Numbered from the stretch's first letter, positions 24,497-35,555 are shown. The stretch: 64,000 nt of DNA from Desulfurococcus sp. (GCA_026626905.1 JAPNUX010000003.1:124001-188000); one strand, 5' to 3'. Made by a program: numbers and translations. The notes: generated by a model from the sequence alone, not told the origin.

Positions 24497-24934
24497 CTAG
24501 ATGTATGCTTCAGCTTTAACTATGTCTGTAAGTATTGCTGGGTACACTTCTACTACTCCATCAATACCCCTGATTTCATCGTGTATTCTCTGGAGCTCAT
24601 CGCTCTCCCTCGCCCATATAACTGCTAATATCTCGTGGTCGCCTGATGTTATCGCAAGGTACTTCACATACTCCTTTTCCTTTAGCTTTGAGACTACCTC
24701 GAAGAGTTTTTCAGGCTTAACGTTTACGCCGGTATAGCTTACCTTATTGTAGCCTAGACTGGCTGGATTTACTATGGGAACATACCTTCTGATAACACCC
24801 TGAGCCTCTAGCTTCCTCACTCTCTTGATGACGGCTACATCACTTAAACCCAGCTTTAACGCTATCTGCCTGAACGGCTTCCTAGCGTTCTCCGTGAGCT
24901 CCTTGATTATCTTCAAGTCTATTTCATCAAGCAT
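24497..24934 (-). CDS. Lrp/AsnC-family transcriptional regulator
   Basis: A complete 145-residue Lrp protein: an N-terminal HTH (IDLKIIKELTENARKPFRQ, then ALKLGLSDVAVIKRVRKLE) and a C-terminal RAM domain with the EYVKYLAITSGDHEILAVIW pattern. Likely an octameric DNA-binding protein responding to an amino acid or metabolite. ATG at 24934 follows GAGGTGG. It is the last gene of a three-gene set after superoxide reductase and a CLTC protein, so it may control oxidative-stress genes or itself (inference). Confidence 0.88.
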   Translation of the reverse strand: MLDEIDLKIIKELTENARKPFRQIALKLGLSDVAVIKRVRKLEAQGVIRRYVPIVNPASLGYNKVSYTGVNVKPEKLFEVVSKLKEKEYVKYLAITSGDHEILAVIWARESDELQRIHDEIRGIDGVVEVYPAILTDIVKAEAYI

Positions 24935-24954
24935 GGGATTCCACCTCTAAGCAC

Positions 24955-25248
24955 CTAGACGGATTTAACCTTGAATACACCCACCCTTTTATATTCTTCT
25001 CCTTCCGGCTCCAGGTAGTCTATGAGCTCAGCCTCGTAACCCATAGATATTAACACGTACTTATAGTCTTCAACCCAGTCTCTAACACCACATGTAAGGC
25101 AGAAAGAGCCCTGGAATTCGATGACTGCTAGCCCTTCATCATCTCTAACATCCACTAACCGGGCTGTAGCCTCCGGTGACCTAACCTTATTGTAGGCTTC
25201 AACCGCGGAGAGAGCTATATCTTTCAGAGAATACTTCTCTACCTTCAA
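24955..25248 (-). CDS. Conserved hypothetical with CLTC motif, in the SOR operon
   Basis: A 97-residue mixed alpha/beta protein I do not recognise. The pattern AVIEFQGSFCLTCGVRDWVEDY places a CxxC pair (Cys50, Cys53) at the end of a strand, suggesting redox or metal binding. It begins with TTG at 25248, preceded by GGGTGAAG, four bases after the superoxide reductase stop, and ends 20 bases before the Lrp gene. The tight linkage suggests a role with superoxide reductase, for example electron or metal handling; this is inference. Confidence 0.65.
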   Translation of the reverse strand: MKVEKYSLKDIALSAVEAYNKVRSPEATARLVDVRDDEGLAVIEFQGSFCLTCGVRDWVEDYKYVLISMGYEAELIDYLEPEGEEYKRVGVFKVKSV

Positions 25249-25252
25249 GACT

Positions 25253-25630
25253 TCACCCTTTAACCTTTATCTCCTTATAGCTCTCCCATAATCCATGCAG
25301 GTTGCAGTATTCGAGTGCTATTAGCCTGCCGGGTTTTGACACCTTCAAGTAGACTTCTATCGTGGGCTCACTGTAGACTGGCGTCAGCTCGTACCTACCC
25401 ACTAGGATCGGGTTGAATGCCCTCCCCTCCTCCTCGAAGTACAGCTCGATCCATCTGATAGAGTGCTCCAGGGTGTTCGGGTGGGGGCCCACGGTAACCT
25501 TAACTTTAAATACTTCGCCTGGCTTAACTTCATCTGGTGCTTCAATTCTAGGTGTATGAGTTTCAACTTTGCTTATAGCTTCCCCTTTAGCTGCTTGAGG
25601 CGTGTATATGAGATCCCTTAACCCGGGCAT
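25253..25630 (-). CDS. sor: Superoxide reductase (neelaredoxin type)
   Basis: Reduces superoxide to peroxide without making oxygen, protecting an anaerobe. The 125-residue chain has all ligands of the Fe(His)4Cys centre: His25 (with the sixth ligand Glu23) in VETHTP, His50 and His56 in PHPNTLEHS, Cys109 and His112 in CNLHGLWE. It lacks the N-terminal desulforedoxin domain, so it is the one-iron class. The start is ATG at 25630 with GGTGAG upstream. First gene of a three-gene operon with a CLTC protein and an Lrp regulator. Electrons normally come from rubredoxin, not encoded here. Confidence 0.93.
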   Translation of the reverse strand: MPGLRDLIYTPQAAKGEAISKVETHTPRIEAPDEVKPGEVFKVKVTVGPHPNTLEHSIRWIELYFEEEGRAFNPILVGRYELTPVYSEPTIEVYLKVSKPGRLIALEYCNLHGLWESYKEIKVKG

Positions 25631-25680: not shown

Positions 25681-25824
25681 CTAATTTCCAGGTAAGATTT
25701 ACGTAGAGATGGCTTTGTAAGCTTAGCTAGCCTGCAATTCTTAAGGTTAATTTAGTGCCACTATAATAAGACTTTCTTTATGATTAGTTCAGTACCACGT
25801 CTGCTTAGAGTTGGAGGGGTTTCT

Positions 25825-26352
25825 ATGAGTATTGATAACGAGGTGCTCGAACTGCTTAGAAAGCTTCTAGCAAAACCCGAGAAGAAGCCTGGTGGAGGTG
25901 TAGGCTTAGAGGTAGACTCTATTGGACCCGAGCAGCCGCATGGAGTCTACGTTTACGATGCAGCGAGAAGCAAGTGGGTGTTAAAGCATGTGGAGGGCGA
26001 CTACTTTAAGCCGTGGGAGGATGGTGTATACGTAGTGTACTTTGATAACACTAAGTGCCCTGCCTGCAGAGTACAAGACTTATACTGGTATCCCTTCGTG
26101 AAGATCTTCGGGTCGACATTCAAGAGCTCACACTACATTGTCATCTTATGCGGCTGGTTCACGAGAGAGTGTGATTCAAGCATAGCTAAAGGTAGCTTCC
26201 AATACTACGATATTCACGCATCCCCGACAATCCTGTTAATGCATGTAAAGGATGGTAGTGTGAAGGCTACCAGTAAGCTTGAAGGAGTAAAGAAGATCGA
26301 CGAGCTTGCTGGAGAATTAGCGAAGTTTACCGAGGAAGCCGGACTAAAGTAG
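25825..26352 (+). CDS. Thioredoxin-like protein with CPAC motif
   Basis: About 175 residues. A thioredoxin-type core from about residue 65 includes the strand VYVVYFDN, then the redox pair in CPACRVQDLYWYPF (Cys78, Cys81), and a cis-Pro loop in HASPTILLMH. The N-terminal 50 residues are a helix plus a Gly-rich linker. It likely reduces disulfides in the cytosol; no signal peptide is present. ATG at 25825 has GGAGGGGT just upstream, so the longer frame from 25780 is not needed. It is divergent from the superoxide reductase operon and lies 20 bases before mptA. Confidence 0.8.
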   Translation: MSIDNEVLELLRKLLAKPEKKPGGGVGLEVDSIGPEQPHGVYVYDAARSKWVLKHVEGDYFKPWEDGVYVVYFDNTKCPACRVQDLYWYPFVKIFGSTFKSSHYIVILCGWFTRECDSSIAKGSFQYYDIHASPTILLMHVKDGSVKATSKLEGVKKIDELAGELAKFTEEAGLK

Positions 26353-26372: not shown

Positions 26373-27212
26373 TTGGAGATCCCAGACGTACATTCAGAGC
26401 GTCCTTCAATTGAAGTACGCGTTAACAACGTGGGCTTGGGGAGACTGCGGTCGCCGCCGCTGTTAGCTGGTGAATACATTGTTACACCAGTATTCAAGAT
26501 CTCAGTGGATCTGCCAGGACACTTAAAGGGAGCCCATCTTTCACGTATATACGAAGCTTTCACCAGTGTCATGAAGCCTTTCAACAGGCTGGATTTAAGC
26601 GTGCTGAGAAGGCTTGCTCTAAGACTACTCGAAGCCAACGACTACTCAAGTAGAGCTGTAGTTACAGTTAAGGGGAGACTCTACTACTCACAATCGCAGC
26701 ACGAGTACTCTAGCAACGGCTTTCTCTACGCCCGCATCTCGGTTGAACGTGAGGGGGGCTCGATAACCCCGGTAGCCGAGTACAGTGGGGGAGGATTCTA
26801 TACTCTAACCACCTGCCCCTGTGCGATGGCGGTCTCCGAGTACCTCTACGGTAAGCCCTTCACTCACATGCAGAAGGTAAGAGTTAACGCTTACATTAAA
26901 TCTAGGGGTGTCAGCGTAGAGCCGTTAGAGGTATTCGAGCTATTAAAGAACATGCTTCAAGCCCCACGCAACTATCTGAAGAGAGCTGAGGAAGCCGAGC
27001 TTGTTAGAGCTGTACACGAGAAGCCGTTTTTCACAGAGGATATAGCGAGGCTGGTATCCGCTAGCCTAGCAGAGCTCTTAGCTAGGAAAAACACTCTAGA
27101 CCCCCAGAGCCTGGTGTATGTGACTGTAAAATCCTTTGAAACTATACACGAGTATACTGTTGAATCAGTGGTTAAAGCGAGAGCTATAGATCTATTGAAG
27201 GATAGGGGTTAA
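26373..27212 (+). CDS. mptA: GTP cyclohydrolase MptA (FolE2 family)
   Basis: First step of archaeal pterin synthesis: GTP to 7,8-dihydroneopterin 2',3'-cyclic phosphate, using Fe2+. The family motif DLPGHLKGAHLSRIYEAF (residues 46-63), a central SQSQHEY, the conserved TTCPCAMAVSEYLYG (146-160) and FTHMQKVRV (163-171) are present. The length of 279 is close to Methanocaldococcus MptA. TTG at 26373 follows AGGTG by eight bases. It heads a five-gene cluster with mptE, mptD, a DmrX-like gene and a dihydropteroate-synthase-related gene, which supports methanopterin-type rather than queuosine-type use. Confidence 0.88.
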   Translation: MEIPDVHSERPSIEVRVNNVGLGRLRSPPLLAGEYIVTPVFKISVDLPGHLKGAHLSRIYEAFTSVMKPFNRLDLSVLRRLALRLLEANDYSSRAVVTVKGRLYYSQSQHEYSSNGFLYARISVEREGGSITPVAEYSGGGFYTLTTCPCAMAVSEYLYGKPFTHMQKVRVNAYIKSRGVSVEPLEVFELLKNMLQAPRNYLKRAEEAELVRAVHEKPFFTEDIARLVSASLAELLARKNTLDPQSLVYVTVKSFETIHEYTVESVVKARAIDLLKDRG

Positions 27213-27220
27213 AGGAAGAT

Positions 27221-27955
27221 ATGAGCTGGATTATTCCTCGGAGGGAATGGGAGCCCCTCTACCAATATATTAGGTCGGTAGTAAAGCTCTCATTCGATAG
27301 AGATCAGGAGGCAGCAGACCTCTTAAGCTCCATTCTAAGTGGGCTCCCAAATACGATCGAATTCGACGACTTGAAGAGATTACAGGGTGGCTTTAAGAGA
27401 GCAGTAGTATTCGGCTGTGGAGGCAATCTTCTTAGAGATATAGAAACTGCCAGGGAGCTCAGCCTGCTCGAGGATTCACTACTCGTGGCGTCAGATGGCT
27501 CTACAAGCATCCTGCTCTTAAATAGTTTAACCCCTAGTATTGTTGTCACAGATCTCGATGGGTTAGCCGTGGATTTATGGAGGGCCTCTAGTACTGGGTC
27601 AGTTACAGTAATACACGCTCATGGAGACAACATACCTAGGATTAAAGAGTACACGAAAGGCTTTAAGGGCCCCTTAATTGGCTCTACGCAGGTTGAGCCA
27701 AGGCCCCACGTCTATAATTTCGGCGGCTTCACGGATGGGGATAGAGGAGTCTTCGTAGCAGTCGCGTTAGGTGTTAGAGAAGTCTACCTAGCAGGCTTTG
27801 ATCTCCATGGCGAGCCCACTCCGTGCCCGGGTAAAACAGCCTCATTTAATAGAGAGTTGAAGAGAGCCAAGTTGAAGATAGCTTCAAGAATGCTAGAGTA
27901 CATTAGTAGCAGGAAGAACGTCACCATAAGACGTGTGGGTGATGTATACGAGTAG
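27221..27955 (+). CDS. mptE: 6-Hydroxymethyl-7,8-dihydropterin pyrophosphokinase MptE
   Basis: Transfers pyrophosphate from ATP to 6-hydroxymethyl-dihydropterin in the archaeal tetrahydromethanopterin pathway. It belongs to the DUF115/MptE family, not bacterial FolK. Signature segments are VFGCGGNLLRDIE (about 65-77), VTDLDG (about 107-112), VIHAHGDNIPRI (about 126-137) and the acidic-basic loop FGGFTDGDRG (about 167-176), then YLAGFDL. It starts 8 bases after mptA and its 3' end overlaps mptD by about 14 bases, so expression is coupled. Confidence 0.87.
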   Translation: MSWIIPRREWEPLYQYIRSVVKLSFDRDQEAADLLSSILSGLPNTIEFDDLKRLQGGFKRAVVFGCGGNLLRDIETARELSLLEDSLLVASDGSTSILLLNSLTPSIVVTDLDGLAVDLWRASSTGSVTVIHAHGDNIPRIKEYTKGFKGPLIGSTQVEPRPHVYNFGGFTDGDRGVFVAVALGVREVYLAGFDLHGEPTPCPGKTASFNRELKRAKLKIASRMLEYISSRKNVTIRRVGDVYE

Positions 27956-28340
27956 TGATAGGGCTAGCAAGTACTTCTCGGAGAAGGTGACACCGAGGGA
28001 TAGAGCTGTCTTTGAAGCAGGTATAGCAGTAGGCATGGTTGTACACCAGTTCACCGGTATACCAGTGAAAAGCGAGGAAGATGCCAGGCTACTTGAAAAA
28101 ATCATTGAGAACGCTATTAAAGCTCAGCCGTTTAGAGAGGATGCTAAAGTTAAAATTAGAATTGATAGCCCGGGAGACCCCAGCGACCCTTACTCTTATA
28201 CCACGCTGAAAACAAGGAACATGGATGTTAGTATTACAGTCAAGTACAAAGGAGTCCGCGTTAAAGCTAGATTAAAGTATATACCTGAACTAGACTACAA
28301 TCTAGCATTCATCGAGGATATAGAGGAAGCTGGCGGATAA
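27942..28340 (+). CDS. mptD: Archaeal dihydroneopterin aldolase MptD
   Basis: Cleaves 7,8-dihydroneopterin to 6-hydroxymethyl-dihydropterin and glycolaldehyde. It matches the small archaeal MptD family (DUF372), about 130 residues, with the N-terminal pattern TPRDRAVFEAGIAVGMVVHQFTG and a C-terminal beta region (VSITVKYKGVRVKARLKY). ATG at 27942 is chosen; a GTG nine bases upstream is also open. It overlaps mptE by 14 bases and is followed after two bases by the DmrX-like gene. The overlap order is the pathway order minus MptB, which is not in the window. Confidence 0.83.
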   Translation: MYTSSDRASKYFSEKVTPRDRAVFEAGIAVGMVVHQFTGIPVKSEEDARLLEKIIENAIKAQPFREDAKVKIRIDSPGDPSDPYSYTTLKTRNMDVSITVKYKGVRVKARLKYIPELDYNLAFIEDIEEAGG

Positions 28341-28342
28341 GC

Positions 28343-29089
28343 GTGGCTGAAAGCATTGCATGGGGTATTACTGGTGCAGGAGCCTTCATGAAGGAGAGCA
28401 TTGAGGCTATTAAGAACCTCGTGGAGGCTGGTGTAGCTGTCACAGCATTCGTGTCTAGGGCTGGTAGAAGCATCCTAGCAATGTACGGGCTTCTCGGGGA
28501 ACTAGAGAGCATTTTGAAAGGCCCGTATCCTACTGGAGTAGTCTTCGAGGATGAAGAAGCCCCAGGATACCCTTCGACAGGCAGGTTCTATAAGGGCGTG
28601 TACAGTATTGCAGTCGTATCCCCGGCCTCAATGAATACGGTAGCTAAGATAGTTAACGGTATAGCTGACTCCCTAGTCTCAAACATGGTTATGCACGCTC
28701 TCAAGAATAACATTGAAGTCCTAGTTCTACCCGTGGATCTGTACGAGACGAGAAGCCTCATACCAATACTCGTTGAGAGGGAGAAGTGCTCTAAATGCAC
28801 TGAGTGTACTGCAGCAGACTCCTGTCCTACAGGAGCTCTCCGAAAGGATGTGCTTCATAAGGTGAAGGTAGATCCTTCGAAGTGCACTAGATGCTATATC
28901 TGTATTAATGCATGCCCCTTCAACGCTATACTATTCGATGTAGAAGTAGTGGTTAAACCACACCCATTCTACACTAGTATAATCGAGAGGCTTAGAGGCG
29001 TACCCGGTATTAGAGTAATAGATCATCCTCGGAGAATCCTCGAGTACACTAGGTGGCGGAGGATTGAAGATAGCACTCATCACAGGTAG
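28343..29089 (+). CDS. dmrX: DmrX-like archaeoflavoprotein with two [4Fe-4S] sites (probable dihydropterin reductase)
   Basis: Residues 1-145 form an FMN-binding flavoprotein domain (AWGITGAGAFMKE, later VSPASMNTVAKI) like archaeal dihydromethanopterin reductase. Residues 148-195 add two ferredoxin clusters: C149-x2-C152-x2-C155-x5-C161-P and C181-x2-C184-x2-C187-x3-C191-P. DmrX-type enzymes reduce dihydromethanopterin to the tetrahydro form using electrons from iron-sulfur carriers. GTG at 28343 starts it, and the 3' end overlaps the next gene by 26 bases. Family fit is good, and the cofactor setting strengthens it. The electron donor is probably ferredoxin (inference). Confidence 0.82.
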   Translation: MAESIAWGITGAGAFMKESIEAIKNLVEAGVAVTAFVSRAGRSILAMYGLLGELESILKGPYPTGVVFEDEEAPGYPSTGRFYKGVYSIAVVSPASMNTVAKIVNGIADSLVSNMVMHALKNNIEVLVLPVDLYETRSLIPILVEREKCSKCTECTAADSCPTGALRKDVLHKVKVDPSKCTRCYICINACPFNAILFDVEVVVKPHPFYTSIIERLRGVPGIRVIDHPRRILEYTRWRRIEDSTHHR

Positions 29090-30605
29090 GCTTGCAGGCA
29101 GCGAGGTGCGAAGACTAGCTGCTGAGCTGAGCAGGCCGGGTCTAGAGATAGTAGTTGTCGAGCTGCCTATTCCCGTTGCTGCAATGATGACTAGCAGCTA
29201 CCTTGAGAAAGAACTCCCAAGGCATCTAGAGGAGCTTAAAGATGTTGATTTAATCATAGTGCCTGGATTCACAAGCGGAGATCTCACAAGAGTCTCAGAG
29301 ATAATGGGTAAGCCTGTGGTCAAGGGCGTTAGATACCTACATGATATACCCTTAATGATCGACGCGGTGGCCAGGGGCGTGGAGCTCTCGAGAGTAGAGC
29401 CGGCTGACGAATTAATAGCAGCGCAGAGAGCGGAGAGAGATCTAGCGATCCTCGAGGAGCTGAAGAAGGAGGCTTCAAGAAACTACTATTTCACTATAGG
29501 CGTGGAGGGCAAGGTCTACGTGAGCCCTCTCTACCCTATAATACTACATGAAGTCTACGTGCCCCGTGAATCCCGTGTAGAAGACGTAGTAAGGAGTGCA
29601 GTTAAAGCTTCTGGCAGCGGAGCTGACGTAATAGTACTCGGGTTCCCACTACACTATAATCCCAGAGGTCTCAGGGAACTCGTGGATAGTGTAAGAGAGT
29701 CTACAGGCAGGCCTGTAGGCGTTGACTCCCCTGATACATTGGTTTTAAAGGAGGCTTTAGATGCCGGTGTAGACTTGCTCATGAGCTTTACTCTCAGTAG
29801 GCTCAGAGAATTCATGGATATTGATGGCTTGAAAGATAAAGCCGTAGTGTTAATACCGGGTGAGGAGGCACAAGGACAGGAGGTCCTCGACAGCTTAGCT
29901 CACACCTACAGTACTGCTGTTGAGCACGGGTTTTCAAAGATTATCCTTGACCCTATTCTAGATATACCACTAGCCGGGTTAACCCGCTCACTAGAGAGGT
30001 ACGTGAAGGCTAGAGAGATGTTCCCAAAAACCCCTCTCCTTATGGGTGCCGGGAACATCACGGAAATGATTGACGCGGATAGCGTAGGGGTTAACGCCTT
30101 GATAGCATCAATGGGAGTTGAGATTGGAGTTGAAGTATATCTTACAACAGAGGCTAGCGTGAAGACGCGGGGCTCTACAAGAGAGCTTAGAAGAGCTTTA
30201 GATATGTGCTTGATAGCGCGGAGGGAGAAGAGGCCTCCTAAAGACCTCTCAATAAACCTTCTTGTTCTCAAAGATAAGAGGAGGAAGACTACTCCACTGC
30301 AGCTCCAGGGTATTGTAGTTGAAGCCGGGGAGAGACTAGGGTTTAAAGCCGACCCAAAGGGATTCTTTAGAATCCACGTCGACCATGACTCTAGTAGAAT
30401 AGTGGTTGAGCATTATAAGCCAGGGGAGGCTGCACCAGACTACACAATTATAGGTGTGGATCCTAAAGCTATTCTAGCAGAGATCACTAGGATGCAGCTT
30501 GCAAGCCTGCCAGACCACTTCTTCTACTTAGGCTACGAGCTTAGTAAAGCCTCCATAGCCTTAAGGATTGGTAAGGAGTACGTTCAGGATGAAGATTTAT
30601 TCTAG
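29064..30605 (+). CDS. Dihydropteroate synthase-related protein (methanopterin pathway)
   Basis: A 513-residue archaeal protein of the DHPS-related family (TIGR00284 type). The N-terminal part (to about 130) is Rossmann-like, the middle (about 175-400) is a pterin-binding TIM barrel with VIVLGFPLHYNPRGL, GVDSPDT, SKIILDPILDIPL and LLMGAGNITEM, and the C-terminal 110 residues resemble the DUF4346-type domain that accompanies it. It would couple a pterin pyrophosphate to an aromatic acceptor. TTG at 29064 lies inside the end of the previous gene. Its place at the end of mptA-mptE-mptD-dmrX supports a role in methanopterin-like cofactor synthesis; the exact reaction is unproven. Confidence 0.82.
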   Translation: MKIALITGRLAGSEVRRLAAELSRPGLEIVVVELPIPVAAMMTSSYLEKELPRHLEELKDVDLIIVPGFTSGDLTRVSEIMGKPVVKGVRYLHDIPLMIDAVARGVELSRVEPADELIAAQRAERDLAILEELKKEASRNYYFTIGVEGKVYVSPLYPIILHEVYVPRESRVEDVVRSAVKASGSGADVIVLGFPLHYNPRGLRELVDSVRESTGRPVGVDSPDTLVLKEALDAGVDLLMSFTLSRLREFMDIDGLKDKAVVLIPGEEAQGQEVLDSLAHTYSTAVEHGFSKIILDPILDIPLAGLTRSLERYVKAREMFPKTPLLMGAGNITEMIDADSVGVNALIASMGVEIGVEVYLTTEASVKTRGSTRELRRALDMCLIARREKRPPKDLSINLLVLKDKRRKTTPLQLQGIVVEAGERLGFKADPKGFFRIHVDHDSSRIVVEHYKPGEAAPDYTIIGVDPKAILAEITRMQLASLPDHFFYLGYELSKASIALRIGKEYVQDEDLF

Positions 30606-30651
30606 GATCGCGTTAACCGCTTAGCGTTTACCTGAAGGCGTGGTGGCAGTC

Positions 30652-32955
30652 TTGAAGGCTTTCAGAGTAGTTATCGCAGGCCTAGTGCAGGGAGTGGGGT
30701 TCAGGCCATTCATAGACAGAATTGTGCGGAGCCTAGGGCTGAAAGGCTACGTGAGAAACGTGGGGGGAAGTGAAGTCGAGGTATGGGTTGAAGGCTCTGA
30801 AGAACAACTCTACGAGTTTCTAGCCCTCCTAGTATACGAGAAGCCTCCTCCGGCTGTAGTAGAAGAAGTATTCGTGGAGGAAGAAGCCCCTGCATACTAC
30901 CATGAGTTCACTATACTGAAGAGCAGTGAAGTGAAACTGCTTAGATCCAATATACCACCAGACCTAGCTGTGTGCAAGCATTGCTTAATGGAGGTACTAG
31001 ACCCCTCTAACAGGAGATACATGTACCCATTTAACTCCTGCGCTTGGTGTGGCCCCCGCTTCTCCATGATGTACAAGTCTCCATACGACCGTGAAAACAC
31101 GAGTATGGCTAAGTACCTGCTCTGCGATGAATGCATGAGAGAGTATAGGGATCCAAGTAATGAGAGAAGGTATCATGCTCAAGGTATAAGCTGCCCTAGG
31201 GACGGGCCGAAGCTAGCCTTGTACGATAGCGAGTTTAATCTACTGGATTCAAAAGACCCTATAGGCGATGCAGCTAAGCTAGTAGATGAAGGATACATTA
31301 TAGCTGTTAAAGGAGTAGGCGGCTACCATATAGCGGCTCTCGCTACAAGCGATGATGTAGTCTACCGCTTGAGGCTGCGGAAAAAGAGGCCTAGGAAGCC
31401 TTTTGCTGTAATGGGGCTTGATACCAGCGTGCTCAAGCTACTAGTATACATGAGCGAGGAGGATGAGGCGCTTTTAAACTCCCCTCAAGCACCCATACTC
31501 CTGCTACCTAAGCGCGAGGACTCACCGGTTTCAAAGCTGGTTTCACCGGGGTTAAGCCACGAAGGGGTTTTCACAGCTTACACGCCACTCCACTTCATAC
31601 TACTAATGAATACACGCGACAAGTTCCTCATTATGACCAGCGGGAATGTAAGCGGGGAACCCATGTGTACCAGCGAGGAGTGCGCTAGAAGAAAGCTTAA
31701 AGGCATAGTGGACTTCTACCTCGTGCATGATAGAGAGATAGTTAACAGGGTTGACGATAGCGTTCTACGTAAAACTGGGGAAGAATACGTTCAGCTTAGA
31801 AGATCCCGCGGGTACGCTCCAGCCTGGATTAGAATACCATTCGAGTTATCCAGGAGTGTTATAGCTTTTGGAGGAGACCTCAATAGTACAGGAGCAGTGG
31901 GCTTTGAAGACAAAATTGTTGTATCACAGTACATAGGGGATTTAGACAGCTTCAACGCTCAACTGGACCTCTTAAAGGCCCTGGACTACCTGGTTAGAAA
32001 CTACGGTTTAAACGAGAACAGCCTCATCGTAGTTGTCGACAAGCATCCACTCTACCATTCAAGAACCCTGGGATTAGAGTACGCGAGGAGACATGGGGCT
32101 CAAGTATTAGAGGTCCAGCATCACTACGCGCACGTTTATGGTGCAGCAGTAGATAGAGGACTGAAGGGTAGAGTAGCCGGGCTAGCTGTCGACGGTGTCG
32201 GTTGGGGTGACGACTCAACGATATGGGGTGGTGAGGTAATAATCTTCAATGTAGAGGAGCCAGGAGTATACAAGAGAGTAGCCTCCATAGACCAGGTACC
32301 CTTGACCAGCGATAGAGATACTCTTAAGCCCATCAGACTACTCTACGGCTACCTAGCTAGGAAGGGTTGGAGTGTAAGCGAGATAGAAAAGACTCTACCA
32401 GGTGCTACTGGAGGAGCACGCGTGGAGGGGCGTGTAGCATTCAGGCTTGTCGAGTTAGGCAGGTATACTCTAGCCTCTAGCACCGGCCGCCTACTGGATA
32501 TGGTGGCCTCTATTCTGGATCCAAGTGTTGAGAGAAGCTTTGAGGGGGAGCCAGCTATTCTCCTCGAAGCTCTTGCTAGTAGAGGAGCCCCCAGGCTGAT
32601 AGAAGGATTTAAGCTCAGCCAGGAGAACAGGCTGCTTAGACTAGACTACTATGAAGCCGTTGTCAGGCTTCTCGAGGATGCTGGGAGAGCTAGCCATGGT
32701 AGTATAGCCGCCTCATTCCTCTACAGCCTAGGCTACTACTACGGCGAGCTGATCATAGAGTCCACTAAAGGCGAGAGCATTGATGGTGTCGTCATCTCGG
32801 GTGGAGCAGCTGTAAACGACTATATATACAGGGGTCTTAGAGACAGTCTGAGGGCTGCTGGATTGAAACCCCTACTCCCGCAGAGAATCCCACCTAACGA
32901 TGGAGGCCTGTCTTTTGGTCAAGCAGTTATAGGTGGGCTTGTTAGCCTTACCTAA
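30652..32955 (+). CDS. hypF: [NiFe] hydrogenase maturation protein HypF
   Basis: Makes the carbamoyl/thiocyanate group for the Fe(CN)2CO centre of [NiFe] hydrogenase. Domains in order: acylphosphatase (VQGVGFRPF, residues about 12-20), two zinc fingers (about 107-190), YrdC-like carbamoyl-AMP domain (to about 370, with the RRSRGYAPAW segment), and a Kae1/TobZ-like carbamoyltransferase domain (VQHHYAHVYG, AVDGVGWG, SGGAAVN). The second zinc finger ends CPRDGP, so Asp replaces its fourth Cys. TTG at 30652 follows GGTGG by five bases; GTG at 30640 is the alternative. The stop codon is part of the mbh operator that follows, directly before the hydrogenase operon it serves. Confidence 0.92.
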   Translation: MKAFRVVIAGLVQGVGFRPFIDRIVRSLGLKGYVRNVGGSEVEVWVEGSEEQLYEFLALLVYEKPPPAVVEEVFVEEEAPAYYHEFTILKSSEVKLLRSNIPPDLAVCKHCLMEVLDPSNRRYMYPFNSCAWCGPRFSMMYKSPYDRENTSMAKYLLCDECMREYRDPSNERRYHAQGISCPRDGPKLALYDSEFNLLDSKDPIGDAAKLVDEGYIIAVKGVGGYHIAALATSDDVVYRLRLRKKRPRKPFAVMGLDTSVLKLLVYMSEEDEALLNSPQAPILLLPKREDSPVSKLVSPGLSHEGVFTAYTPLHFILLMNTRDKFLIMTSGNVSGEPMCTSEECARRKLKGIVDFYLVHDREIVNRVDDSVLRKTGEEYVQLRRSRGYAPAWIRIPFELSRSVIAFGGDLNSTGAVGFEDKIVVSQYIGDLDSFNAQLDLLKALDYLVRNYGLNENSLIVVVDKHPLYHSRTLGLEYARRHGAQVLEVQHHYAHVYGAAVDRGLKGRVAGLAVDGVGWGDDSTIWGGEVIIFNVEEPGVYKRVASIDQVPLTSDRDTLKPIRLLYGYLARKGWSVSEIEKTLPGATGGARVEGRVAFRLVELGRYTLASSTGRLLDMVASILDPSVERSFEGEPAILLEALASRGAPRLIEGFKLSQENRLLRLDYYEAVVRLLEDAGRASHGSIAASFLYSLGYYYGELIIESTKGESIDGVVISGGAAVNDYIYRGLRDSLRAAGLKPLLPQRIPPNDGGLSFGQAVIGGLVSLT

Positions 32956-32980
32956 CATTTCATGTTAGGATATCCTAACA
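32951..32980. promoter_or_regulatory. Triple CCTAACA operator of the mbh operon
   Basis: Three half-sites alternate: CCTAACA (32951-32957), TGTTAGG (32963-32969) and CCTAACA (32974-32980). The last two form an 18-bp perfect palindrome TGTTAGGATATCCTAACA; the first two form CCTAACAT-TTC-ATGTTAGG. The array ends right before the TATA box and starts inside the hypF stop codon. A site just upstream of BRE/TATA more often activates than represses in Archaea (inference). Confidence 0.65.
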
Positions 32981-32999
32981 CAATATTTATTAGTATAAA
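32981..32999 (+). promoter_or_regulatory. TATA promoter of the mbh operon
   Basis: CAATATTTATTAGTATAAA holds the likely TATA box, right after the CCTAACA operator. Transcription would start near 33012, about 25 bases before ATG 33037. Confidence 0.6.
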
Positions 33000-33036
33000 C
33001 TATCCTTGATCTCCATTGAAGTTCACAGGTGCTTAC

Positions 33037-33525
33037 ATGTCAGCTAGTACCCGTAAGCAGGCTACTGAAGCTGGCAGGGAGTACAGGATTATACGCTACA
33101 GCCCTTGGCTAGTGCACTTCAACACTGGGGCTTGTAATGGATGCGATATAGAGGTTCTAGCAGCAATAACACCACTCTACGACCCGGAGAGGTTTGGTGT
33201 CAAGCTGGCTCCTAGTATAAGACACGGGGATATACTGGTAGTGACGGGGGCTCTAACAAAGAAGTCAGCTGTAAGATTAAAGAGGCTATACAACCAGATG
33301 CCCTGCCCTAAGTTTGTTATAGCTGTCGGTGCATGCGCGTGCAGTGGGGGCGTCTTCCACAAGTCGTACTCTGTTCTAGCCGGAGCCGATAAAGCTGTCC
33401 CCGTTTCAATCTGTGTGCCAGGCTGTCCTCCCCGGCCGGAAGCCATTCTAGACGGTATCGTGAAGCTCCTTGATAGAATAAGAAGAGGGGAGGCTGTTGA
33501 TGACGGGTGTAGAGGAGAAGCTTAA
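33037..33525 (+). CDS. mbhJ: Membrane-bound hydrogenase small subunit MbhJ (NuoB-like)
   Basis: Holds the proximal [4Fe-4S] cluster next to the NiFe site. Ligand motifs are GACNGCDIEV (Cys33, Cys36), VGACACSGG (Cys100 region) and CVPGCPPRPE (Cys130), as in complex-I NuoB and group 4 hydrogenases. The frame opens at TTG 33016, but ATG at 33037 has AGGTG five bases upstream and leaves about 162 residues, matching the family. First gene of the operon; it overlaps mbhK by about 26 bases. Works on the cytosolic face. Confidence 0.9.
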   Translation: MSASTRKQATEAGREYRIIRYSPWLVHFNTGACNGCDIEVLAAITPLYDPERFGVKLAPSIRHGDILVVTGALTKKSAVRLKRLYNQMPCPKFVIAVGACACSGGVFHKSYSVLAGADKAVPVSICVPGCPPRPEAILDGIVKLLDRIRRGEAVDDGCRGEA

Positions 33526-33952
33526 CTTAATTGAGAAGTATGCCGTGGAGAAAGGTATCGTAAAGCCGGGGAGAAAGCTCTATGTGGTTAAACCAGGAGA
33601 CTTGAGGAGTGTTTTCACAGGTTTACTCGAGAAGACTGGTAGAGAAGGATTCTACGTGTCAACTATTGCTGGCACCGACTTAGCTGGCGAGGGTAAAATA
33701 AGACTAGACTACTATATCGTATTGCTCCCGGAGGAAGAGACCATTGTTATTAGAACGTTCCTGCCCCGCGATAACCCTGTTATAGACTCACTAGTAGACT
33801 TGATTCCCGGCGTTCTCTCCGGTGAATGCGAGACTCACGATCTACTCGGCGTAGTATTCAAGGGTAACCCATTCCTGAAGCGCGGCTTCTTCGTACCCTC
33901 AGATCTAGCCGAGAGAAACGTCTACCCGTTGAGAAAGGATAGCGGGGTGTAA
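33500..33952 (+). CDS. mbhK: Membrane-bound hydrogenase subunit MbhK (NuoC-like)
   Basis: The 30-kDa-type subunit of complex I and group 4 hydrogenases that binds the large subunit. The C-terminal hallmark is CETHDLLGVVFKGNPFLKRGF with later YPLRKD, corresponding to the NuoC signature E-R-E-x-x-D-x-x-G. It contains no cofactor. At 150 residues it is compact. ATG at 33500 lies within the end of mbhJ, and mbhL starts 8 bases after its stop. It should sit on the cytosolic arm with J, L and N. Confidence 0.87.
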   Translation: MTGVEEKLNLIEKYAVEKGIVKPGRKLYVVKPGDLRSVFTGLLEKTGREGFYVSTIAGTDLAGEGKIRLDYYIVLLPEEETIVIRTFLPRDNPVIDSLVDLIPGVLSGECETHDLLGVVFKGNPFLKRGFFVPSDLAERNVYPLRKDSGV

Positions 33953-33960
33953 GCTACAGC

Positions 33961-35181
33961 ATGGGTGTATCGAAGATCATCGAGATACCCTACACGCTTG
34001 AAATACCTGTTGGACCCCAGCACCCAGCACTCCACGAGCCACTATTATTGAAAGCCTATGCTGACGGCGAGGAGATAGTTAAAGTTGAAGTAAACACAGG
34101 ATACAATCACCGTGGTATAGAGAAGCTCGCTGAGAAGAACACGTTCTACCGTGACATCTTCGTTGTTGGGAGAGTATGCGGGATCTGCAACGCAGTACAT
34201 GCAAACTGCTATGTGAGAGCACTTGAAGCCCTGCTAGACGTAGAGCCCTGCAGTAGAGCCAAGTATCTCAGGGTTCTCGCAATGGAGCTGGAGCGTATAC
34301 ACAGCCACATGCTGATAAACGCAGTTATGGCGGAGAACATAGGCTTCGATAACCTCTTCATGAATATCATGCTGGATCGTGAGAGAGTTATGAAGGCTAA
34401 AGAGATACTGACTGGGAATAGAGTTCTAGCAGACTACATGATGGTCGGCGGGGTTAGAAGAGACATCAGCGAGGAGAAGAAGGATAGAATCCGCAGGCTC
34501 CTACTAGAGTTGAAGCCGAGAGTAGAGTACTACAAGAAGGTGTTTGAGGAGGATGAAACGATCCTGAAGAGACTAGTTGATGTCGGAAGACTTAAGCCCG
34601 TTGATGTGACAATGCACGGGCTCCTAGGCCCGGTAGCCAGGGGATCCGGGGTGAGAATTGATGCTAGAGCCAGCGATAGGTACGATGCATACAGTGAAAT
34701 ACCCTTCAATGTCGTAACAAGGAGTGAAGGAGATTCCTGGGCTAGAATGATGGTTAGATGGGATGAAACCCTAGAATCCATTAACATATCCCTCTACATC
34801 CTCGAGAAGCTGCCGAGCGACGGTAACCCTGTACCCGATGAGAGAAAACTCCCCAGGAAGTTCCCGCCTGGGGAAGCATATACGAGGGTTGAAGCTCAGA
34901 GAGGAGAGCTTACATACTACGTTATGAGCGATGGGAGAAGCCTTAACCCCTATAGAGTGAAGATTAGGACTCCAAGCTTCAATAACATTATTAACACAGG
35001 CTTCCTCTATGTTGGCTACACGATACCCGACCTCCCAGTCATACTCACGTCACTAGACCCTTGTATCTCCTGCATGGAGAGAGTGACAGTTGTAGACTTA
35101 GAGAGGAATACTGTGCTTAAAGTATCAATGAAGGAGTTGAGTGGTGGTAGAAGATGGGTAAGCCGAAGATACTCCCTCTAG
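33961..35181 (+). CDS. mbhL: [NiFe] hydrogenase large subunit MbhL (NuoD-like)
   Basis: Catalytic subunit that reduces protons to H2. Both NiFe ligand pairs are present: RVCGICNAVH (Cys73, Cys76) and DPCISCMERV (Cys368, Cys371). This separates it from the sulfur-reducing MbxL, which lacks a full set, and from NuoD. The C-terminal tail runs 35 residues past the last Cys. The 3' end overlaps the ferredoxin-like gene by 28 bases. HypF upstream supplies active-site ligands. The other Hyp genes and the maturation protease are outside the window. Confidence 0.93.
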   Translation: MGVSKIIEIPYTLEIPVGPQHPALHEPLLLKAYADGEEIVKVEVNTGYNHRGIEKLAEKNTFYRDIFVVGRVCGICNAVHANCYVRALEALLDVEPCSRAKYLRVLAMELERIHSHMLINAVMAENIGFDNLFMNIMLDRERVMKAKEILTGNRVLADYMMVGGVRRDISEEKKDRIRRLLLELKPRVEYYKKVFEEDETILKRLVDVGRLKPVDVTMHGLLGPVARGSGVRIDARASDRYDAYSEIPFNVVTRSEGDSWARMMVRWDETLESINISLYILEKLPSDGNPVPDERKLPRKFPPGEAYTRVEAQRGELTYYVMSDGRSLNPYRVKIRTPSFNNIINTGFLYVGYTIPDLPVILTSLDPCISCMERVTVVDLERNTVLKVSMKELSGGRRWVSRRYSL

Positions 35182-35555
35182 CCTTAAAGAATATTGTAAG
35201 CAAGCCAGCGACGATCCAGTATCCTAGGGAGCCGACTCCCGTTGAAAAAGACATCAGGGGGATGCACTACGCGGATTTAAACAAGTGTACTGGGTGCTCT
35301 CTCTGCGCGATAGAGTGCCCTGCAGACGCTATAAGAATGACGCCTATACCGGAAGGCTATGAAGCCCCGAAGATTAATCCGAGAAGAATATACCCTATAG
35401 TAAGCTACAGTCTCTGCGTTTTCTGCTATCGCTGCGTGACAGCATGCCCCTTTAACGCTTACGTTTCAACAAGCGAGTACAGGCTGGCAGGCCATGTTGT
35501 CGGGGATTCATCTCCTCTAAGTCTTTCAACACTTAGAAGGGTGGGCTCACAATGA
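35154..35555 (+). CDS. mbhN: Membrane-bound hydrogenase ferredoxin-like subunit MbhN (NuoI-like)
   Basis: A 133-residue 8Fe ferredoxin-type subunit that takes electrons from soluble ferredoxin to MbhJ. Two complete clusters are seen: CTGCSLCAIECPADAI (around residue 43) and CVFCYRCVTACPFNAY (around 85). ATG at 35154 overlaps mbhL by 28 bases, and its stop overlaps the next start (ATGA). In Pyrococcus mbhN is the last gene, while here it directly follows mbhL. Confidence 0.9.
   Translation: MGKPKILPLALKNIVSKPATIQYPREPTPVEKDIRGMHYADLNKCTGCSLCAIECPADAIRMTPIPEGYEAPKINPRRIYPIVSYSLCVFCYRCVTACPFNAYVSTSEYRLAGHVVGDSSPLSLSTLRRVGSQ

Follow-up and report, generated by a model that had tools for sequence, protein, structure and literature searches.

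At least six modified C1 carriers are in use in archaea (PMC9931769). Many archaea which are not methanogens use modified folates. In the Sulfolobales a folate analogue intermediate between folate and methanopterin is found (PMC3261824), and the SHMT of S. solfataricus is selective for sulfopterin, the modified folate of this organism (PMC3697235). In haloarchaea, MptA, RFAPS and Mch homologs are retained, but the carrier is thought to be plain tetrahydrofolate, and the RFAPS homolog of Haloferax, present together with MptA, was judged unable to make RFAP; homologs alone are therefore insufficient to prove the cofactor (PMC8305020). In the papers searched no cofactor chemistry was found for the genus Desulfurococcus.

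The locus described here was analysed in a window of 64,000 nucleotides, the whole stretch of DNA under study, from Desulfurococcus sp. (GCA_026626905.1, JAPNUX010000003.1:124001-188000), a member of the Desulfurococcaceae with a 1.27 Mb genome in 8 contigs which is 99.9% complete. Five genes at 26373-30605 on the plus strand, mptA, mptE, mptD, a dmrX-like gene and a TIGR00284 DHPS-like gene, are separated by successive gaps of 8, -23, 2 and -26 bp, so that the single operon of overlapping or closely spaced genes (within 8 bp) given in an earlier note on this DNA is confirmed. A thioredoxin-like gene upstream of mptA belongs to the same tight gene run, its role in the pathway being only a candidate one. 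The genes of the run are:

25780..26352, plus strand, CPAC-motif small protein, thioredoxin-like, separated from mptA by 20 bp
26373..27212, plus strand, mptA, archaeal GTP cyclohydrolase (GCYH-IB/FolE2 family), TTG start (PF02649, 122.8 bits, cut-off 25)
27221..27955, plus strand, mptE, 6-hydroxymethylpterin diphosphokinase-like (PF01973, 61 bits, cut-off 34.6)
27933..28340, plus strand, mptD, archaeal dihydroneopterin aldolase (PF04038, 121.2 bits, cut-off 25)
28343..29089, plus strand, dmrX-like gene for a candidate dihydropterin reductase, a flavoprotein which has two 4Fe-4S motifs (Flavoprotein, PF02441, and Fer4 domains)
29064..30605, plus strand, TIGR00284 DHPS-like protein with an N-terminal DUF6513, a pterin-binding TIM barrel and a C-terminal PterinBD-DUF4346 (TIGR00284, 354.4 bits)

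The position of the CPAC-motif protein (family c8) upstream of mptA is kept in five genomes; a Pfam search with it returned no match. For this gene run the earlier note was right that mptB is missing: it was found neither within the operon nor as a recurrent neighbour in the clusters of relatives.

The pterin branch, mptA, mptD and mptE, exceeds the gathering cut-offs of PF02649, PF04038 and PF01973. The best NCBIfam match of MptA is TIGR00294 (MptA), with a score of 107 which is below the cut-off of 220, and its TCPC and H-x-Q motifs align with those of relatives. In relatives mptE recurs together with mptA. As mptD (PF04038) is present in only 12 of 41 sampled genomes, it was rejected as a universal member of the set; in four clusters without it a PTPS-family gene adjoins mptA (L048:5842-6324, L049:12106-12564, L057:4566-4979 and L058:9309-9782) and is likely to be the MptD stand-in. 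A search of the open literature for MptD with MptE, for MJ0301/MJ0107 and for COG2098/COG1634 found nothing. The DmrX-like protein matches TIGR02700 (MJ0208 dihydromethanopterin reductase) over its full length and by far better than any other model, at 191.4 bits and thus under the cut-off of 251.35. It carries the cysteine motifs CX2CX2CX5CP and CX2CX2CX3CP, and the top PDB match of its profile is 3wis, a putative dihydromethanopterin reductase. DmrX itself has been described as an iron-sulfur flavoprotein which works with FMN (PMC6193120).

The TIGR00284 protein matches its model over the full length and above the curated cut-off of 256.65. Its predicted structure (pLDDT 91.8) has a fold matching the barrels of MetH and DHPS, with a TM of about 0.73 to DHPS when normalised by DHPS length, and the top Foldseek match is the folate half of MetH. 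The barrel, at profile positions of about 166-332, aligns both to DHPS (E 2.8e-14) and to MeTr (E 1.3e-13). The Ser-Arg-Lys motif has a functional role in DHPS; at its site TIGR00284 has a conserved Gly-Asn-Val which aligns with MeTr, the invariant Asn331 occupying the place of the motif. The protein thus shares the pterin-binding barrel of FolP, MeTr and MetH, but differs from FolP by this Asn and by its extra N- and C-terminal domains, the latter resembling part of MtrA. A Pfam search gave no PF00809 match, so that neither of the two marks of a canonical FolP, this match and the Ser-Arg-Lys motif, is found in the window protein. The label "dihydropteroate synthase-like" describes a barrel with a methyltransferase-like pocket and should be used with caution; the protein is a candidate for joining the pterin to an arylamine. 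The contig scan for TIGR00284 was done with a profile of a closer set, the alignment of 31 TIGR00284 proteins being too diverse. Divergent paralogs are present at L062:5291-6745 (G023), L081:6402-7865 (G017) and L083:5923-7416 (G015), where they adjoin aldehyde-ferredoxin-oxidoreductase-like, MoaA-like and MoaC-like genes (named by the look of their sequences), hinting at a possible tungstopterin role. In two further genomes a 290-aa protein with a weak DHPS-like profile match adjoins RFAPS (L201:6624 in G101 and L202:8020 in G166).

The operon had been called complete-looking. It is not, as the following three genes of an overlapping run lie on another contig and the cluster has no mptB; users of a C1 carrier are found on the same other contig:

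contig 6, 12205-13131, minus strand, RFAPS-like (RFAP-synthase-like) gene (TIGR00144, NF040726)
contig 6, 13116-13763, minus strand, DUF447 gene, overlapping run with the RFAPS-like gene
contig 6, 13717-14946, minus strand, DUF1464 gene, overlapping run with the RFAPS-like and DUF447 genes
contig 6, 25206-26321, GcvT
contig 6, 26360-27706, SHMT

The RFAPS-like protein, a homolog of the enzyme for the arylamine step which is diagnostic of methanopterin, scores below the curated cut-offs, with 96 against 113.5 bits for TIGR00144 and 129 against 328 for NF040726; in the RFAPS tree it groups with those of G001, G007 and G019 (clade support 100/99). About 6 kb beyond DUF1464 lies a glycine-cleavage cluster (Lpd-like, gcvPB, gcvPA, gcvT, SHMT and gcvH), whose genes, with SHMT, are likely the users of the carrier. 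The searches proposed in the earlier note, for RFAP synthase and for C1-carrier enzymes, thus yield an RFAPS-like gene, whose copy in relatives is in the same cluster as the mpt genes, and SHMT, but not Mch (PF02289), which had no match in this genome and is present in 5 of the 41 sampled genomes.

Homologs of the MptA, MptD, MptE, RFAPS, TIGR00284 and DmrX proteins of methanogen H4MPT biosynthesis are all present in this genome, and RFAPS and DUF447 both match here as they do in the methanogen controls M. jannaschii and Methanosarcina. Unlike in methanogens, MptB is absent from the cluster, Mch is lacking, the genes are spread over two contigs, and DUF1464, absent from the methanogen controls, is present. 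Heterotrophic Sulfolobales and other hyperthermophiles with sulfopterin or other modified folates are organisms of the same type and put the carrier to a like use, as the preference of the S. solfataricus SHMT shows; the S. acidocaldarius control shares the RFAPS, DUF447 and DUF1464 matches, but has none for PF02649 (MptA) or PF04038 (MptD). Haloarchaea resemble the present genome in having MptA, an RFAPS homolog and DUF447 (PMC8305020), whereas the Haloferax control gave no match to TIGR00284, which stands in the operon here together with the DmrX-like gene.

Three or more of these genes are clustered in 16 of the 41 sampled genomes, the present one included. Since they recur together in 15 relatives from several families, in varying order and orientation, clustering by chance was rejected. 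Desulfurococcaceae and Thermogladius are among the names of related loci. RFAPS, DUF447 and DUF1464 are found within the mptA/mptE/dmrX/TIGR00284 cluster of relatives: RFAPS is inside the mpt cluster in G004, G005, G008, G014, G015, G016, G026 and G036, in G007 and G019 a few kb separate the trio from mptA-mptE-mptD-dmrX-TIGR00284, and loci of Bathyarchaeota, Thermofilaceae and Hermodarchaeota hold the same gene mix. Among the good genomes of the relatives TIGR00284 is present in 33/33 (some as divergent paralogs), SHMT in 32/33 and GcvT in 28/33. The set is not surprising in a non-methanogen: it is ordinary for the group and widespread in Thermoproteota, where modified folates are already published (PMC3697235, PMC3261824, PMC9931769), and the operon itself is to be expected.

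What is new comes from co-occurrence. In a sample of 250 Thermoproteota genomes, with a threshold for RFAPS-like proteins of E about 1e-12 or better, 102 had an RFAPS-like gene, 87 DUF447, 81 TIGR00284 and 68 DUF1464. All 68 genomes with DUF1464, 86 of the 87 with DUF447 and 78 of the 81 with TIGR00284 also had an RFAPS-like gene, counts which ignore shared ancestry; two very weak DUF1464 matches, both in genomes with RFAPS (G030 and G040), are outside the 68, and 24 RFAPS genomes are without a strong TIGR00284 match. Within 6 kb of RFAPS are found DUF1464 in 27 genomes, DUF447 in 42 and TIGR00284 in 31. G015 and G023, which we take to be two species of one genus, differ in the whole set, as RFAPS, DUF447, DUF1464 and the main TIGR00284 are present in the first and missing from the second, which retains the divergent TIGR00284 paralog only. 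To judge by gene content, these patterns tie DUF1464 and DUF447 to the making of a methanopterin-like carrier, and the two appear to be better guides to its last steps than the DHPS-related protein, to which that part had been given previously.

The RFAPS tree also contains a clade of 12 RFAPS-like proteins (support 100/100), nearly all of which adjoin DUF1464 and not mpt genes; several of the host genomes have a second RFAPS. The steady partner of DUF1464 is thus an RFAPS-type protein, which may point to a second related transfer step. RFAPS-like paralogs beside DUF1464 and within one clade are those of L223, L224, L215-L217, L219, L221, L225, L227 and L229. At other loci, including those of Bathyarchaeota and Hermodarchaeota, DUF1464 is found together with mpt genes. 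A structure predicted for the DUF1464 protein of a Candidatus Scotarchaeum relative, about 47% identical to the one studied here, has a pLDDT of 84.9 and matches butyrate and acetate kinases, so the protein models as a butyrate-kinase-like phosphotransferase; no open paper on DUF1464 was found. DUF447 matches structural-genomics entries which are themselves without assigned function, and proteins of this type presumably bind FMN. Among the DUF447 papers found one concerned archaea, in which DUF58/DUF447 proteins were suggested, without test, to be linked to the cannulae of Pyrodictiaceae (PMC13140500). The co-occurrence with RFAPS does not favour this link.

The gene identities, clustering, co-occurrence and folds described above are what is shown. 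From them the cluster in this hyperthermophilic heterotroph, which gives no indication of producing methane, is very probably the pterin half of a pathway leading to a C1 carrier of methanopterin type, a modified folate, for glycine and serine metabolism and not for methanogenesis. Gene context lends good support to membership in such biosynthesis, curated scores less. The substrates, the final tail and the sequence of the late reactions are inferred. MptA would open GTP, and a putative phosphodiesterase in the role of MptB would, with MptD, lead to 6-hydroxymethyl-dihydropterin, which MptE would convert to the diphosphate. From pABA and PRPP the RFAPS homolog of contig 6 would make ribofuranosyl-aminobenzene phosphate, and the TIGR00284 protein would couple the pterin diphosphate to the arylamine. 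The DmrX-like protein, with FMN and two Fe-S clusters, would reduce the dihydropterin to the tetrahydro form, while DUF447, of the FMN split-barrel type, and the kinase-like DUF1464 would catalyse additional reactions, probably acting on the arylamine or the tail. The finished carrier would take methylene groups from glycine through GcvT and supply SHMT. The earlier proposal of a methanopterin- or sulfopterin-like C1 carrier thus gains from the RFAPS-like gene, SHMT and GcvT; since Mch, as an enzyme strictly specific for H4MPT, is missing, the exact cofactor is a presumed one.

The step given to TIGR00284 has its own alternative, compatible with this explanation of the operon, namely that the protein is a pterin-binding methyltransferase or carrier protein and that another enzyme performs the condensation. 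The MeTr-like Gly-Asn-Val in place of the Ser-Arg-Lys of DHPS, the MetH folate half as top structural match, the MtrA-like C-terminal domain, the 24 RFAPS genomes without a strong match and the paralog beside AOR-like and MoaA/MoaC-like genes all point this way. We nevertheless consider it unlikely, given the adjacency of TIGR00284 to RFAPS in 31 genomes and the M. jannaschii homolog, which reportedly has DHPS activity; on the same side is counted the 290-aa weak profile match beside RFAPS, as if a DHPS-size enzyme, in two genomes which both also hold TIGR00284 pieces.

Less probable still is an ordinary tetrahydrofolate with pABA, as proposed for haloarchaea, with the RFAPS homolog employed elsewhere and the DHPS-like protein using pABA directly. 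The example of Haloferax, where MptA is accompanied by the RFAPS homolog thought incapable of forming RFAP (PMC8305020), argues for it, and so do the scores of the present RFAPS homolog below the curated cut-offs and the fact that GcvT and SHMT are common to folate users. Against a methanopterin-type carrier as such weigh also the MptA and DmrX homologs below the curated equivalog cut-offs, the lack of an Mch in the genome and of an mptB in the cluster, and the 24 RFAPS genomes without a strong TIGR00284 match. The tetrahydrofolate reading accounts poorly for RFAPS lying within the TIGR00284/mptA/mptE/dmrX cluster of relatives and alongside TIGR00284 in 78 of 81 genomes, for a DHPS-like protein without the canonical DHPS signature, and for the preference of the S. 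solfataricus SHMT for sulfopterin (PMC3697235). A service of these genes in queuosine/archaeosine, biopterin or molybdopterin synthesis, which share the early pterin steps and, for molybdopterin, could claim the relatives' divergent TIGR00284 paralog beside AOR-like and MoaA/MoaC-like genes, is highly improbable and was rejected, because mptA has mptE, mptD, the dmrX-like gene and TIGR00284 as neighbours, because mptE, mptD, dmrX-like and RFAPS genes are foreign to those pathways, and because the window TIGR00284 belongs to the main group clustering with RFAPS and not to the molybdopterin-linked paralogs.

Within the preferred methanopterin-type pathway we tentatively propose, at slightly less than even chances, that in Thermoproteota and part of the Asgard archaea DUF1464 is an enzyme dedicated to the branch which provides the arylamine or the tail, in partnership with RFAPS or with the distinct RFAPS-like paralog, perhaps in a second PRPP-dependent ribosylation, and that DUF447 acts as a flavin enzyme in this branch. 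If true, DUF1464 and DUF447 would explain how the carriers of non-methanogens differ from H4MPT. For the missing steps the comparison thus supplies a few candidates open to experiment: DUF1464, DUF447 and the RFAPS-like paralog, whose genes occur also in cultivated genera.

In six genomes of the sample (G003, G006, G009, G017, G018 and G023, with G009 and G017 incomplete) SHMT and GcvT are present, while RFAPS, DUF1464 and MptD gave no match; judged on this gene content, these organisms must import their C1 carrier or make it in another way. Around the operon in the window, HypF begins 34 bp downstream of the DHPS-like gene and is followed by hydrogenase-like and ferredoxin genes (30640-35555); a second hydrogenase-like set resembling this one is present on contig 6 (L006:1205-3669). 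On the other side and divergent from the operon are a Lrp-like regulator, a small gene and a desulfoferrodoxin-domain gene (24497-25630), a trio which adjoins the operon with its order kept in five genomes.
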